A DNA stretch of 64,000 nucleotides from positions 1-64,000 of the forward strand of contig JACOSB010000056.1 of assembly GCA_016179105.1 (NCBI GenBank). The letters run 5' to 3'. How positions within the stretch are numbered: the first letter of the stretch is position 1; the number at the start of each line of letters is the position of its first letter. The translations under genes and the position numbers were made by a program. A model generated the notes under the pieces. That model did no database searches, had not been told where the DNA came from, and saw only the letters and a program-made list of their open reading frames with translations. Shown piece by piece: positions 48,742-58,305 of the stretch. The DNA comes from Candidatus Acetothermia bacterium (GTDB lineage Bacteria; Bipolaricaulota; Bipolaricaulia; RBG-16-55-9; DRXL01).

Positions 48742-49512
48742 TTAAGGCCCGTACAGAGCGGCGACGCCGGCCTTGTCGCCCGCGCCCAGGCTGCGTTTTA
48801 GCGTCTCGCCCGGTTGCGCCGACGGGTACATCGTCAAGGCTCTGTCTTTGCGCGAACCGGTATGGCCCAAGCCTAACGCATGCCCGATCTCGTGTGTAGC
48901 AATGTCTTGGATATCGATTGTCTTCCCTTGCACCGTCGGACAAATATCAGCTCCCAGAATTCCCCACGATTCACTCGCATCGAAGAGAATGGAGAAACTG
49001 ACCATTTGAGTTCCTTGGTAAGTAAACGAGGTCTGCGCCAGCGCCCTGCCGGGGCCGTCGATCGTTCCCCAACTGACGATGTTTGAGGAATTCTCATCCT
49101 CTCTGAAGCTGAGCGAAGTGACCGCAGCGCTCCAGGTCGCAAAGGCTTGACGGATCGCGTTTTTCCAGGCCTGGTTGGTCACTGATGAGTCCAATCGGTA
49201 GGTGACCGGCATCTCCTGCCAGTGCACCCCTCCCGCATACAGTTTGTACGCCTTAGACTCTGCGCAGGGACCGTTATTTCTCACTCGTGCCAATGGAGTA
49301 GTTTCAGGAGATGTTTCATGCCAATCTGTGAAGGTCGCTGTTCGTAAACCTGTGACGGGATTTTCAATGTCGGTGACGTCCATGAAATGATTCGATTCTG
49401 ACTGGGGAGAGAATGTCGCCGTCGTGCAACCTCCTGCCAGAAAGTCAAGCAGCGCAAGTAATCCCAGCACGAATGGGAATTTTGTGCGAGTGTAAAAATG
49501 GCGTGTGTTCAA
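48742..49512 (-). CDS. Small matrixin-like metalloprotease, probable lipoprotein
   Basis: A 256-residue exported zinc protease. The N-terminus FVLGLLALLDFLAGGC ends in a near-lipobox before Cys, so it is probably a lipoprotein, though the consensus is imperfect. The matrixin-type catalytic domain has VTYRLDSSV, AFATWSAAV, ATHEIGHALGLGHTGS (three His ligands and catalytic Glu) and the Met-turn ALTMYPS. The terminal AGVAALYGP is typical of M10 peptidases. It shares the HEIGHALGLGH core with the giant protein at 12917 and has no propeptide cysteine switch that I can identify. Confidence 0.85.
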   Translation of the reverse strand: MNTRHFYTRTKFPFVLGLLALLDFLAGGCTTATFSPQSESNHFMDVTDIENPVTGLRTATFTDWHETSPETTPLARVRNNGPCAESKAYKLYAGGVHWQEMPVTYRLDSSVTNQAWKNAIRQAFATWSAAVTSLSFREDENSSNIVSWGTIDGPGRALAQTSFTYQGTQMVSFSILFDASESWGILGADICPTVQGKTIDIQDIATHEIGHALGLGHTGSRKDRALTMYPSAQPGETLKRSLGAGDKAGVAALYGP

Positions 49513-51641: not shown

Positions 51642-53429
51642 ATGCGGTATTTTCTAGGATTCATCGGATGTGTTCTGTTGTCTGGATTCGTCTTCTATGC
51701 CGACGACCAAACGCTCGTCACCCACCGAGTCGATGCCCCTGCACTCCAAAAAATGTCGGGAGCTGCACTGGTGTTCACGGCTCAAGCGCAAGCACCGGAT
51801 GTTCAAGCGCTCCAACGAGAAATCCCGGTCAAGGGCAGCTGTGCCGGAAAATTTAACGTCAAGATCCAAGATAGCAATGTCGAGCTCTGTCCGACTCAGT
51901 ATAAAATCGACGTTCCTGAGGAAGCTGAAGATATGCTGATCGAGCTAGAGAAGGGCGGCAAGTTCGACATGTCTTTTGCGATTGCCCCCAACGACCCAGT
52001 GGGCACATCGGGCAAGAATTTTTTTATCTTTACTCGCCGCGGTAAAGATATCTTTAACTCGGAACTCGGTGTGATCGACCGCGATGGCGGGCTAGAGACC
52101 GGCCCCTGGTACATCGCCATTCTCAATTACGAAGAGAAAGCGCGTGATTATTCAGTCATCGCAAGCCCCGACCCGGTCGTGCTCAAGTCTGGCGAAGCCT
52201 ATAATGGTTCAATTCTGGATAACACTATTGGCGGCCGCAGCAACGGTCGCGGCGGCCTGCTCGGCTTCGTCGACTATAAAATTTCCGTTCCCCAGGGCAC
52301 GACCTCTTTTAAAGCAAACCTGCATAATAACTCTTCCGGCAGCATTAATTTGTACATTCGCTTCGATAAACCCGTCGATCTCAATCGAGATGGCGACGTG
52401 CTCGCCGATTACATCGGTGAAAGACCGGGCAAGGATGTTAGTCTCACTGTTACGGATAAATCCAATCCTCCGCTGAAAGCAGGAAATTACTACCTTAAAG
52501 TGGCCAACTTCGACAACCAACGCCAGTTATTTGTGCTCACGGCCACAGCGGGTGCAGACACAACCCAACCACCGCCCGCCATCAAAGTCCAGCCGAGCAC
52601 GCTCAGCTTTAACGCCGAAGCCGGCGGCCGCAATCCCGCCTCTCAGCAAATTCAGATTACCAATGGCGGCGGCGGAACCCTCAATTGGAAAGCAACAGTC
52701 GATCAGCCTTGGGTTTCTGTAGACCCGGCGAGCGGCACCGCGCCCTCGAACGTCAATGTGAATGTCAATATCGCTGGGCTCGCGGCGGGTACACAAAAAG
52801 CCAAGGTCACCATTGCGGCTGATGGGGCCAACAACAGCCCTCAAACCGTGGATGTGACCCTGACGCTCACGCAGCCGCAACCCCAGACGCCGCCGACGCT
52901 TCAAGTGAAGCCTCAGTCGCTCACCTTCAACGCGACAGTCAATGGGTCTAACCCCGCCGGACAGACTTTAGAGATCACCAACAGCGGCGGTGGGACGCTC
53001 AATTGGACCGCCGTCGCCGATGTGCCCTGGATTAGTCTGAGCGCTAACAGCGGCGCCGCTCCCGCGACGGTGACTGTCAATGTGAATATCGCGGGTCTCG
53101 CTGTCGGCACGCAGCAGGGCCGGATTATTGTCTCTGCGCAGGGCGCGGGCAGTAGCCCGCAATTGATCTCGGTCACGCTCAACATCGCGCCACCGACGTC
53201 AACCGCTGGGCAAGTCTTCGCGATTCGGTTCGTTCGTATCGAATTCCCCACGCCCGAAAAGTGGGACAGATCCGTCAAAGACGGTTGCGTCGTATACAAA
53301 AATATCTCGAACGGACCGGCGACCGTGAAGTTCACGCTGAACAACGGAGATGCGCTCAGCGTCGACATCCCCGCCGGCAAAGAAGTGATCGTCTGCGGCA
53401 CCATCGCTCATATCGATACACGCCCCTAG
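51642..53429 (+). CDS. Secreted BACON-like repeat protein with shared C-terminal domain
   Basis: A 595-residue exported protein. The signal peptide is FLGFIGCVLLSGFVFYADDQ. Residues 60-310 contain beta-rich modules reminiscent of bacterial pre-peptidase C-terminal domains (YDFRI-like AGNYYLKVANFDNQ). Two BACON-like Ig repeats follow: about 313-405 (SQQIQITNGGGGTLNWKATV) and 421-515 (GQTLEITNSGGGTLNWTAVA). The final 73 residues (523-595) match the end of the next protein: KDGCVVYKNISNGPATV, then PAGKEVIVCGTIAHIDTRP. That unit looks like a sorting or attachment domain. No enzyme motif is visible. Confidence 0.78.
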   Translation: MRYFLGFIGCVLLSGFVFYADDQTLVTHRVDAPALQKMSGAALVFTAQAQAPDVQALQREIPVKGSCAGKFNVKIQDSNVELCPTQYKIDVPEEAEDMLIELEKGGKFDMSFAIAPNDPVGTSGKNFFIFTRRGKDIFNSELGVIDRDGGLETGPWYIAILNYEEKARDYSVIASPDPVVLKSGEAYNGSILDNTIGGRSNGRGGLLGFVDYKISVPQGTTSFKANLHNNSSGSINLYIRFDKPVDLNRDGDVLADYIGERPGKDVSLTVTDKSNPPLKAGNYYLKVANFDNQRQLFVLTATAGADTTQPPPAIKVQPSTLSFNAEAGGRNPASQQIQITNGGGGTLNWKATVDQPWVSVDPASGTAPSNVNVNVNIAGLAAGTQKAKVTIAADGANNSPQTVDVTLTLTQPQPQTPPTLQVKPQSLTFNATVNGSNPAGQTLEITNSGGGTLNWTAVADVPWISLSANSGAAPATVTVNVNIAGLAVGTQQGRIIVSAQGAGSSPQLISVTLNIAPPTSTAGQVFAIRFVRIEFPTPEKWDRSVKDGCVVYKNISNGPATVKFTLNNGDALSVDIPAGKEVIVCGTIAHIDTRP

Positions 53430-53444
53430 AGAGGAGAAATTTTT

Positions 53445-56168
53445 ATGAATGCACCCACGCGCGCGTGCCTCAAGTTGCTCACACTCGCATTTATTTTCGT
53501 GGGAGTGAGCGCTCTCACTGTACTTGCTCAGCCTTTGGCTCCTACGGCTTTCGATACCCCAGAGAGCACGAAGCTCCAACGTCAGCTGTCCGTCTTGGCT
53601 GGCGCCGATCGAAGCCATCTCGACTTAGAATCGATGCTTGTGCCCGGTACCGAGCCCGCAGAACTGGAGCGTCACATGGTACGCGCCGTTTTTGAAGTTA
53701 AGAGTGCGAATGGGCTTGCTAAGATTCGCCGTGCGATCGAGGCCGCCGGCGGCTCCTACGAGACGGGACACGACAACGTCATGCAAGCCCTCGTGCCCAT
53801 CGCGTCCGTTGAAAATCTGTCGAAGTTGGACGAGATCGATTACACGCGCTTACCCCAAACCCCTGTATTTTTCGTGCAATCCGAGGGTCTTAGCTCGATG
53901 GGCGTTGACGCCTGGAGCAAAGCAGGCGTCGACGGCAAGGGCGTGAAAGTCGCGATCTTGGATGCAGGCTTTAAGGGATACAAAGATTTGTTGGGGACGG
54001 AGCTTCCGCCCGCAGAGCGAGTGATCACGAAATCTTTTCGTAGAGATGGAGATATCGAAGCCGATCAAGAGCACGGCGCCGCCGTCGCTGAGATTGTGTA
54101 TGACATCGCCCCCGGCGCGACGTTCTATTTAGTGAATATCAACACGGATGTCGAATTTTTCAACGCCGTCGATTATTTGATCGCGGAGAAAGTGAACGTC
54201 GTGAATACGTCCTTCGGGTTCCAGACCGGCTGCCCGCAAGAGAACCGCGGGTTAATAGAACCGGCGCTCGAGAAGGCGCGCAAGGCCGGAATCTTCTGGG
54301 CGGCTTCGGCGGGCAATGCCGGGCGCGGCCATTGGGTGGGCGACTGGAATGACCCGGATAAGAATAATTTGCTCAACTTCACCGACAGCGACGAGAGCCA
54401 GTCGCTGCGCGTCCAGCAGGACGACGTCTTGATTCTTGTCTTGAGTTGGGATGATCCCTGCGGGACTTCTCAGAACGACTATGATATTTCAGTGCGTGAC
54501 GGAGACGGCAAAGAATTAGCGCGCAGCGGGCGCGTCGAGCGCGGCTGGCCCTTAAAGTCCGTCGCCTACCGCGCGACTTTCAACGGCACCGTGCATGTTT
54601 TCATCAAACGCAACAAAGGGACTGCGATCAATATAATCGATCTGTGGTCGCGCGATGACTTAGAATATCGCGTCCCGGCGGGCAGCGTCAGCGTCTCGGA
54701 GCCCTCGATCTCGGCCAACGTGATGACCGCTGGCGCTATCGATTTTTCGAACGATCGACTGCGCAGCTACAGCTCGCGCGGCCCCACCAAGAGCGGTCGC
54801 ATCAAGCCCGATATTTCCGGCCCAGACGGAGTTTCTACCGTCACGTTTGGGCCCGAATCCTCACGCGACGGCGGCTTTTTTGGGACGTCGGCCTCTTCGC
54901 CGCACCTCGCGGGCGCGGGCGTGCTGGTGAAAGCCCAGAATCCCGATCTGAACCCGGCGCAGATCCAAGGCTTCTTGGAAAATCGCGCCGTCGATTTGGG
55001 CGAGCCGGGCAAAGACGGCGCGTTTGGCGCGGGCCGACTCTCTCTCGGCGACCCTAATGAAAAACCTAAGCCGAACGCGGCCCCGAAGGCCGACGCCGGA
55101 CCTGACCAGAACGCGAAAGCCGGGGACACCGTCCAGCTGGATGCGAGTAAATCTTCAGACCCCGACGGAGACAAACTACGCTACGTCTGGAGCTTCGTCA
55201 AGCGACCCGCCAACGGTTATGTCCGTCTCTCGGACCCGGCGAGCCCCAAGCCGACCTTTGTGCCCGACGTCGCGGGCGAGTATGTGCTTGAATTGACCGT
55301 CGAAGACGGCAAGGGCGATAGCTCAAGAGCCACAGTCAAGGTCACAGCCACAGGGTCTATCAACCGCGCTCCCCAAGCGAACGCCGGAACCGACCAGACG
55401 GTCAAGGCCGGCGACACCGTGACACTCGACGCGAGCAAGTCCAGCGACCCCGACGGAGATTCACTGAAATTCAGTTGGGCCTTCGTCTCGCGTCCCAACG
55501 GCAGCCAAGCAAAAATTGCCGACCCGAATGCCGCTAAGACGAACTTTGTGGCCGATCTCGCGGGCACGTATGTTGTCGAGCTGACGGTCGACGACAGCAA
55601 GGGTGGCACCTCCAAGGCGCAAATAAAAATCACGGCGACGGCCGCCAATCGCGCGCCGCAGGCCAATGCAGGCACGGATCAAACTGTAAAAGTCGGAGCA
55701 ACGGTCGCGCTCGACGCGAGCAAGTCCAGCGACCCCGATGGAGATTCGCTGAAATTCAGTTGGGCCTTCCTCTCTCGCCCTAACGGCAGCCAAACCAAGA
55801 TCGCTGACCCGAACGCAGCCAAGACGAACTTTGCGGCTGATGTGGCGGGCACCTATGTTGTTGAGTTGACCGTGGACGACAGCAAGGGTGGCACCTCCAA
55901 GGCTCAAGTCAAAGTGACCGCTCAGGCTGATCAACAACCAACGACGGGTCAGGTGCTCGTACTCGCGTTCAATAAATTAGAATTCGTGGACCCCAGCGCG
56001 TGGGACCGCGCGCTCAAGAACGGCTGCGTCGTCTACACCAACAAATCGAACGGACCGGCGAAGATCCGCGTGACGACGGTAGACAGCCAAGTCTTAGAGT
56101 TTGACATCGCCGCGGGCAAGGAAGTCGTCGTCTGCGGAGAGGCTGTGCATATCGATACACGACCATAG
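53445..56168 (+). CDS. Secreted subtilase with three PKD-like repeats and shared C-terminal domain
   Basis: A 907-residue S8 serine protease. The signal peptide is LLTLAFIFVGVSALTVLAQ and a propeptide runs to about residue 150. The catalytic triad is Asp173 (VAILDAGF), His210 (DQEHGAAVAEI) and Ser482 (GTSASSPHLAGAGVL), with Asn291 (ASAGN) for the oxyanion hole. A beta insert of about 100 residues sits between His and Ser. Three PKD-type domains (about 545-826) follow, the last two nearly identical. Residues 835-907 are the same C-terminal domain as in the preceding gene (KNGCVVYTNKSNGP, EVVVCGEAVHIDTRP). It is 15 bases downstream of that gene and probably cotranscribed. Confidence 0.9.
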   Translation: MNAPTRACLKLLTLAFIFVGVSALTVLAQPLAPTAFDTPESTKLQRQLSVLAGADRSHLDLESMLVPGTEPAELERHMVRAVFEVKSANGLAKIRRAIEAAGGSYETGHDNVMQALVPIASVENLSKLDEIDYTRLPQTPVFFVQSEGLSSMGVDAWSKAGVDGKGVKVAILDAGFKGYKDLLGTELPPAERVITKSFRRDGDIEADQEHGAAVAEIVYDIAPGATFYLVNINTDVEFFNAVDYLIAEKVNVVNTSFGFQTGCPQENRGLIEPALEKARKAGIFWAASAGNAGRGHWVGDWNDPDKNNLLNFTDSDESQSLRVQQDDVLILVLSWDDPCGTSQNDYDISVRDGDGKELARSGRVERGWPLKSVAYRATFNGTVHVFIKRNKGTAINIIDLWSRDDLEYRVPAGSVSVSEPSISANVMTAGAIDFSNDRLRSYSSRGPTKSGRIKPDISGPDGVSTVTFGPESSRDGGFFGTSASSPHLAGAGVLVKAQNPDLNPAQIQGFLENRAVDLGEPGKDGAFGAGRLSLGDPNEKPKPNAAPKADAGPDQNAKAGDTVQLDASKSSDPDGDKLRYVWSFVKRPANGYVRLSDPASPKPTFVPDVAGEYVLELTVEDGKGDSSRATVKVTATGSINRAPQANAGTDQTVKAGDTVTLDASKSSDPDGDSLKFSWAFVSRPNGSQAKIADPNAAKTNFVADLAGTYVVELTVDDSKGGTSKAQIKITATAANRAPQANAGTDQTVKVGATVALDASKSSDPDGDSLKFSWAFLSRPNGSQTKIADPNAAKTNFAADVAGTYVVELTVDDSKGGTSKAQVKVTAQADQQPTTGQVLVLAFNKLEFVDPSAWDRALKNGCVVYTNKSNGPAKIRVTTVDSQVLEFDIAAGKEVVVCGEAVHIDTRP

Positions 56169-56197: not shown

Positions 56198-56226
56198 AAA
56201 GTGCGGCTCGTTTACGGGCCGCACTT
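56198..56226 (+). terminator. Rho-independent terminator of the secreted pair
   Basis: AAAGTGCGGC and GCCGCACTTT form a ten-pair stem with a ten-base loop, followed by CGTTTTC, 29 bases after the subtilase stop. Confidence 0.8.
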
Positions 56227-56307
56227 TCGTTTTCATCTTGAGGAATCACCAAGAATCTTTGGGACGTTGTCAGAAGCAACATATGCGTAGGTTCTGAGAT
56301 TCAATAC

Positions 56308-56771: not shown

Positions 56772-56853
56772 TGAGTTTGATTATATCATAAAGCGCTTGC
56801 TCTTTATGTTCTCTTTCCCTATAATCTCCAAAAGCGAGCCGGGAGGCGAGAAC

Positions 56854-58305
56854 TTGAAGCTCGCGCTTACTTTCGACGACGTATTGCTGGTCCCCCGCCA
56901 CTCCAAAGTCCTGCCCCATGAGGTCGATGTCCGCACGCGCTTGACCAGAAACATCGCGCTAAACATCCCGATCATAAGCGCCGCGATGGATACCGTCACC
57001 GAGGCAGCGCTGGCCATCGCCATGGCCAAGGAGGGTGGGGTCGGTGTTGTTCACCGGAATCTTAATCCCCAAGCCCAAGCCGATGAAGTGCGCAAAGTCA
57101 AGCGCTACGAGTCCGGCGTCATCAAAGACCCCTGGACGCTTAGCAAGGACGATCCCGTAGGCAAGGCTATGAAACTCATGGCCGAGCATCGCATCTCGGG
57201 TGTGCCCATTGTCAACCCACACACCCAAGAGCTGGTCGGCTTGATCACCCAGCGAGACCTTCAATTCCAAGAAGGTCTCGATGAGCCGATCGCGTCTGCG
57301 ATGACTCCCAAAGAAAAACTCATCACCGGCACGCCGGATATTTCGCTTAGCGATGCGAAGAAGCTCTTGCATCGACACAGAATTGAAAAGCTACCGTTGG
57401 TCGATGAGAAATTCAGACTGCGCGGGCTCATCACGATCAAAGATATCATCAAAGCTGAGAAATATCCGAACGCGTGCAAGGACGCGCGCGGACGCTTAGT
57501 GGTTGGCGCCGCCACGAGCACGCAGATGGACATGGCTCGTGAAGAGTTTTTGTTAGAAGCCGAAGTCGATTTTTTAGTCGTGGACACAGCGCATGGGCAC
57601 AGCCAACGTGTCTTGGACAAAGTGAAAGCGCTCAAAAAGCGCTACAAAGTCGATGTCATTGCGGGTAACGTCGCGACCGCGCAAGCGACCGAAGCGCTGA
57701 TTGACGCCGGTGTGGACGCGATCAAAGTGGGCATCGGCGGCGGCTCGATCTGCACGACGCGCGTTGTGACGGGCATCGGTGTCCCTCAATTGACAGCCGT
57801 TTTGGAGTGTGCCAAGGCCGCGGCCAAACACAAGATTCCCATCATCGCCGACGGTGGCATTCGCTACTCGGGCGACATGGCGAAGGCACTCGCGGCCGGA
57901 GCAAACGTCGTGATGCTCGGAAGTCTCTTGGCTGGGACCGAAGAGTCGCCGGGCGAAATGTTCACGCTCAAAGGAGAGTCATATAAAACGTACCGGGGCA
58001 TGGGTTCGGTCGGCGCGATGAAAGAGGGTTCGAGAGACCGCTATTTCTGGGACAACTCACAAGAGCCGATCGCCGAGGGCATCGAAGGCCAAGTGCGCTA
58101 CAAGGGCAAAGTAGCTGATGTTCTCTATCAACTCGTCGGCGGTCTGAAAGCGTCGATGGGTTATTGCGGTGCACCCACGATTCCTGTGCTGCAAGAGACA
58201 GCCGAGTTCATCCAGGTCACGCGCGCAGCTCTTATTGAATCACATCCGCACGACGTGCAGATCACCAAAGAAGCGCCCAATTATCGGTTTAGCGATGAAG
58301 CCTGA
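56854..58305 (+). CDS. guaB: IMP dehydrogenase
   Basis: A 483-residue IMPDH, the NAD-dependent conversion of IMP to XMP at the branch to GTP. The start is TTG 56854, seven bases after GGGAGG; the longer frame upstream has no ribosome site and would add a foreign N-terminus. Motifs: [15 protein letters not shown], two CBS domains (about 95-210), and the flap and active-site loop [17 protein letters not shown] with catalytic Cys300. Later [20 protein letters not shown] and the [10 protein letters not shown] loop are complete. The dgkA-like gene overlaps its last codons. Confidence 0.95.

Follow-up and report, generated by a model that had tools for sequence, protein, structure and literature searches.

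Two neighbouring genes for exported proteins in the window, i.e. the 64,000-nucleotide stretch of a Candidatus Acetothermia bacterium contig analysed here, end in the same module, which, judged by its sequence, is a new, lineage-restricted domain family outside every family tested. We assign a probability of roughly 50% to the reading that this module is a folded, lineage-specific C-terminal accessory for binding or retention, carried by secreted proteases and by a partner protein encoded on the same transcript.

The first gene (51642..53429, plus strand) encodes an exported protein of 595 amino acids with a signal-like N-terminal segment, a PPC-like region and two BACON_2 domains ahead of the C-terminal module. 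In the Pfam comparison BACON_2 reached 65.4 bits; the PPC match (22.1 bits, residues 212-288) is below the cut-off and lies outside the tail. The second gene (53445..56168, plus strand) codes for an exported S8 subtilase of 907 amino acids, in which an N-terminal prodomain-like region, the peptidase domain with the active-site motif GTSASSPH (Peptidase_S8, 99.1 bits) and three PKD domains (PKD_4, 127.8 bits) are likewise accompanied by the C-terminal module. Both module copies lie on the plus strand, comprise 73 amino acids with two cysteines and directly precede the stop codon (copy 1: 53208..53426, stop 53427-53429, profile E-value 7e-30; copy 2: 55947..56165, stop 56166-56168, profile E-value 1.3e-32). 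A BLASTP comparison of the two whole proteins revealed one strong segment, namely the C-termini (105 bits, E-value 2e-27), and the ungapped alignment of the last 77 residues contains 41 identical columns (53%), including W23, C31, C67 and HIDTRP. The shared C-terminal domain on two adjacent secreted proteins, proposed in an earlier note, is thereby borne out, and all residues quoted there (W-D-R, GCVVY..SNGP, AGKEV.VCG...HIDTRP and two matched cysteines) are present. The coordinates given for copy 1 hold, while copy 2 starts at 55947 and not at 55948, which is one base out of frame. That the remainder of the two proteins is unrelated also applies at the level of families, with PPC and two BACON_2 domains in one protein and an S8 peptidase with three PKD domains in the other. 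The end motif HIDTRP closes both window copies, but across the family it is looser, with H/Y-[IVL]-D/E in most copies, and does not necessarily form the last residues.

The stop codon of the first gene and the ATG of the second are separated by 15 bases, and a sequence resembling a ribosome binding site (GAGGAGA, 53432..53438, plus strand) is located in this gap ahead of the second ATG. A consensus match to an intrinsic terminator, a hairpin of 13 pairs (56198..56227, plus strand), lies 3' of the subtilase gene and closes the two-gene unit. Nine terminator-like sites were found compared to 6.4 expected, and this hairpin has the longest stem among those listed. The short gap, the ribosome site between the genes and the terminator-like hairpin behind them suggest that both genes probably form one transcription unit. 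The next large gene downstream on the same strand is an open reading frame at 56797..58305, which was named guaB (IMP dehydrogenase) from reading its sequence and not from a family search. In Fraserbacteria RBG_16_55_9, guaB directly follows an orthologue of the BACON protein (L082/L039), which carries the same module and sits at the same guaB locus in a genome of another family. In G011 the gene is located downstream of a module-bearing subtilase (L045), and its place behind genes with the module is conserved in G016 and G011. Since the BACON orthologue and the subtilase are each found upstream of guaB, the locus and the presence of the module on each of the two proteins probably date far back in the order, and the pair would later have been split by loss. 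Elsewhere in the window, a lipoprotein-like open reading frame (48742-49512, minus strand) bears the matrixin-type zinc-protease motif HEIGHALGLGH.

Profile searches detected 35 copies of the module, distributed over 32 proteins from 16 genomes, and these genomes all belong to one order of Bipolaricaulota (Fraserbacterales-like). Among 60 relatives, including the own genome, a two-row profile matched 16, every one of them from this order and none from elsewhere in the class. Within the order, families f1, f3, f4 and f5 have the module and f2 is without it. A 26-row profile, which was run over 100 genomes of the phylum, added one remote solo protein (E-value 4.7e-7), the sole match in the class at E ≤ 0.001 outside the order. 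This secreted protein of 115 amino acids (L078, 1447-1794, G073) stems from another family and is without the first cysteine; close relatives of it were not found in the phylum. Named records with the module are metagenome-assembled genomes (MAGs) of Candidatus Fraserbacteria, Acetothermia and Bipolaricaulota. A search of genome contigs returned seven true matches, all in Bipolaricaulota or in a MAG placed in the same order. An eighth match (L087, Anaerolineales) was rejected, as it runs antisense to an ornithine-carbamoyltransferase-like gene, and a search of 400 genomes of the phylum around it, conducted without a positive control, gave no match. Viral contigs contained no module. When the solo proteins were left out of the profile, it still recovered them (E-values 7e-16 to 1e-19) as well as the remote protein (8e-8), and the best of 4000 shuffled sequences in the control for this profile reached 0.025. 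Given that the two-row profile matches relatives down to 1e-30 and that held-out solo proteins are recovered far above the shuffles, a likeness by chance is excluded at the sequence level. No Pfam or NCBIfam family corresponds to the module, and the matches of the module and its members, including those to PHROGs, were at chance level only. The best PDB sequence compared to the module profile had an E-value of 1.5, and we found no literature linking the module or the order to a C-terminal sorting domain.

Twenty of the 32 carriers are S8 subtilases of one subfamily. The others are two PPC-BACON proteins, one PPC-PPC-PKD protein, one He_PIG-like protein (235 amino acids), two PKD proteins truncated by contig ends and six solo proteins of about 112 amino acids, which consist of a signal-like N-terminus and the module and nothing else. 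The multidomain carriers have signal-like N-termini as well. The module is the last domain in all cases, present once or as two copies in tandem, with 0-32 further residues behind it, and it is internal solely as the first copy of such a pair. Its reuse at the C-terminus of exported proteins of different type, as proposed earlier, therefore applies to S8 subtilases and to the PPC-BACON, PPC-PPC-PKD and He_PIG-like proteins. A restriction to the two window genes or an internal position in cytoplasmic proteins, the findings named in advance as speaking against the proposal, was not observed, as the module has further carriers and was not found in a cytoplasmic protein. In G001 (L059, 4564-5774), the solo protein adjoins a gene that reads like a glutaminyl-peptide cyclotransferase; the neighbour in G002 differs.

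The own genome (3.7 Mb, 166 contigs) contains one further module site, on C81, where a tandem module pair ends a paralogous subtilase gene. A frameshift at about 6940-7070 of L005 (G000 C81) parts the S8-PKD-BACON portion from the tandem modules, which reflects either a disrupted gene or a mistake in the assembly. This genome encodes about twelve S8 peptidases. One of them, on C47 (L102, 1288-3840, G000), ends in a domain similar to FlgD_ig and Por_Secre_tail, below the curated cut-offs.

The earlier note interpreted the shared C-terminus as a signal for sorting or surface attachment. A transporter or transpeptidase dedicated to this signal would then cleave the module or attach the protein to the surface, following a T9SS-, sortase- or exosortase-like logic. 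This would be in line with the fact that the module ends all multidomain carriers and occurs on exported proteins that are unrelated in other respects, and with the size and all-beta fold of the module, which resemble those of T9SS C-terminal domains (about 75 residues, all beta). Like the module, the T9SS sorting domains Por_Secre_tail (PF18962) and CHU_C (PF13585) form the C-terminus of diverse exported proteins; in contrast to them, the module has two invariant cysteines, few copies per genome and solo forms, and neither profile matched any of 26 members at E ≤ 10. If the module were a sorting signal in the strict sense, each genome should contain a large number of unrelated carriers as well as a dedicated enzyme, and free-standing copies should be absent. 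However, each genome holds just one to five module copies, and instead of the genome-wide set of unrelated carriers that had been expected, the own genome offers one further carrier, the tandem pair. The six solo proteins leave nothing to sort, and up to 32 residues (L041) extend beyond the module. The tails consist of the folded-domain sequence HIDTRP or of short polar extensions; they contain no hydrophobic or transmembrane segment and no basic tail, and thus do not show the combination of an LPXTG-type motif, a hydrophobic segment and a basic tail. The sortase-like gene that had been expected to co-occur was not detected either: in the own genome (93% complete) neither sortase (PF04203; three of 14 controls positive) nor exosortase (PF09721; one control positive) was matched at an E-value of 0.01. 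Secretin gave no match in this genome, and SprA (PF14349) gave none there or in the control genomes. The subtilase-dominated carriers, the solo proteins, the low copy number, the trailing residues and the missing sortase and exosortase matches argue against a classical sorting signal, which we regard as quite unlikely. As such, the proposed signal is not upheld, with 20 of 32 carriers in one subtilase subfamily and solo forms besides; surface attachment through a folded binding module is possible.

In the tree of catalytic domains, the module-bearing subtilases form one clade (support 100/100) when set against two further subtilases from the own genome, and the GTS active-site motif is present in all members of this S8 clade. 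Two clade members do without the module, namely the C125 subtilase of the own genome, which ends in a BACON domain, and the C85 subtilase, which sits on a long branch. The first copies of the tandem pairs cluster across genomes with moderate support in the tree of modules, and some second copies do so more weakly. Because of this clustering, the module was probably doubled early. The tree of the module alone does not show whether the two window copies are nearest relatives. Altogether, the module seems to have been mostly inherited with its hosts and not spread over many protein types.

The share of one S8 subfamily among the carriers could also indicate that the module regulates or stabilises the subtilase, within one molecule or between molecules, in the manner of a foldase-type tail or of a C-terminal prodomain that is cleaved off; the solo proteins would then act in trans. 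Control in trans is made plausible by separate prodomain-like, lipoprotein-like proteins beside several subtilase genes of the order. Such a role does not readily account for the module on carriers that have no protease part (BACON, PPC-PKD, He_PIG), nor for G003 (91% complete), in which a solo protein is present and a module-bearing subtilase absent. Furthermore, Ig-like linkers in variable number separate the module from the catalytic domain. We therefore consider a regulatory function rather unlikely. The small lipoprotein-like proteins, which resemble the N-terminal prodomain of the subtilases, are encoded at L005 3724-4158, L038 6090-6476 and L037 6558-7040, and further ones at L036 5593-6117, L046 2773-3225 and L100 5722-6216. 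In L005, the one case compared, the protein matches the neighbouring subtilase with an E-value of 4e-13. Encoded by genes of their own, these proteins may act as inhibitors or chaperones of the subtilase subfamily.

All 34 aligned module copies contain exactly two cysteines in the same columns, 33-37 residues apart, and 32 of them share a tryptophan. The invariance of the cysteine pair in an exported domain makes a disulfide likely. An AlphaFold model of copy 2, built with nine sequences, predicts seven strands in an all-beta fold with high confidence (pLDDT 93.5, pTM 0.80). Foldseek retrieved no match from the PDB with an E-value under 0.1. The top VIA-align neighbour was the SI3 insert of the RNA polymerase beta-prime subunit, a sandwich-barrel hybrid motif, with a Z-score of 5.1, which is below the level needed to set true relatedness apart from a commonly occurring arrangement (rmsd 3.5, 68 of 77 residues). 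NCBIfam gave a weak beta-prime match as well (E-value 0.02). With 6% identity and an unrelated context, the modelled module and the SI3 insert would at most share a fold. A strict substrate- or carbohydrate-binding module that aids the breakdown of a particular polymer would fit the PKD, BACON and Fn3-like linkers, the tandem copies and the solo secreted forms, all of which are typical of binding modules. However, no carbohydrate-binding module family was matched and the fold matches to sugar-active enzymes were weak and partial, so this narrower function appears fairly improbable.

The C-terminal position, the confident fold, the cysteine pair, the tandem and solo forms, the restriction to one order and the long-standing link to the S8 subfamily and the guaB locus all point to the broader reading as a binding or retention accessory, which is also the default guess for such modules. 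Following Sec-type export, the module would fold as an autonomous domain outside the cytoplasm and, probably locked by a disulfide, act as a non-catalytic binding or retention unit. The protease and its PPC-BACON partner would thus be held at a common extracellular place or ligand, for which a cell envelope polymer, a substrate or a partner protein are candidates. Similar to the PPC domain (PF04151) and other C-terminal protease accessories, the module is a non-catalytic beta domain on secreted proteases and other exported proteins; it differs from PPC by the lack of a sequence match to the PPC profile, by its conserved cysteine pair and by its limitation to one order. The accessory reading is weakened by the weak fold matches, by the C125 subtilase that manages without the module and by the fact that our searches found no homologous domain of known function, ligand or receptor. 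Its main rivals are that the module regulates the subtilase or that it is a genuine address tag. Such a tag would belong to an unrecognised placement system in the Fraserbacterales-type order of Bipolaricaulota and, solo copies included, would anchor exported proteases and Ig-like proteins at an envelope receptor common to them, which we consider a long shot.

The first closed genome of the phylum was hard to call mono- or diderm, and the envelope type is unsettled (PMC6092417). With the module, a phylum of which hardly any members are in culture gains a well-defined domain family; the secreted subtilase subfamily that carries it is named, and a profile is ready for the annotation of exported proteins there. 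If it were indeed a docking tag, it would offer a way into how envelopes of uncertain type display proteins (PMC6092417).
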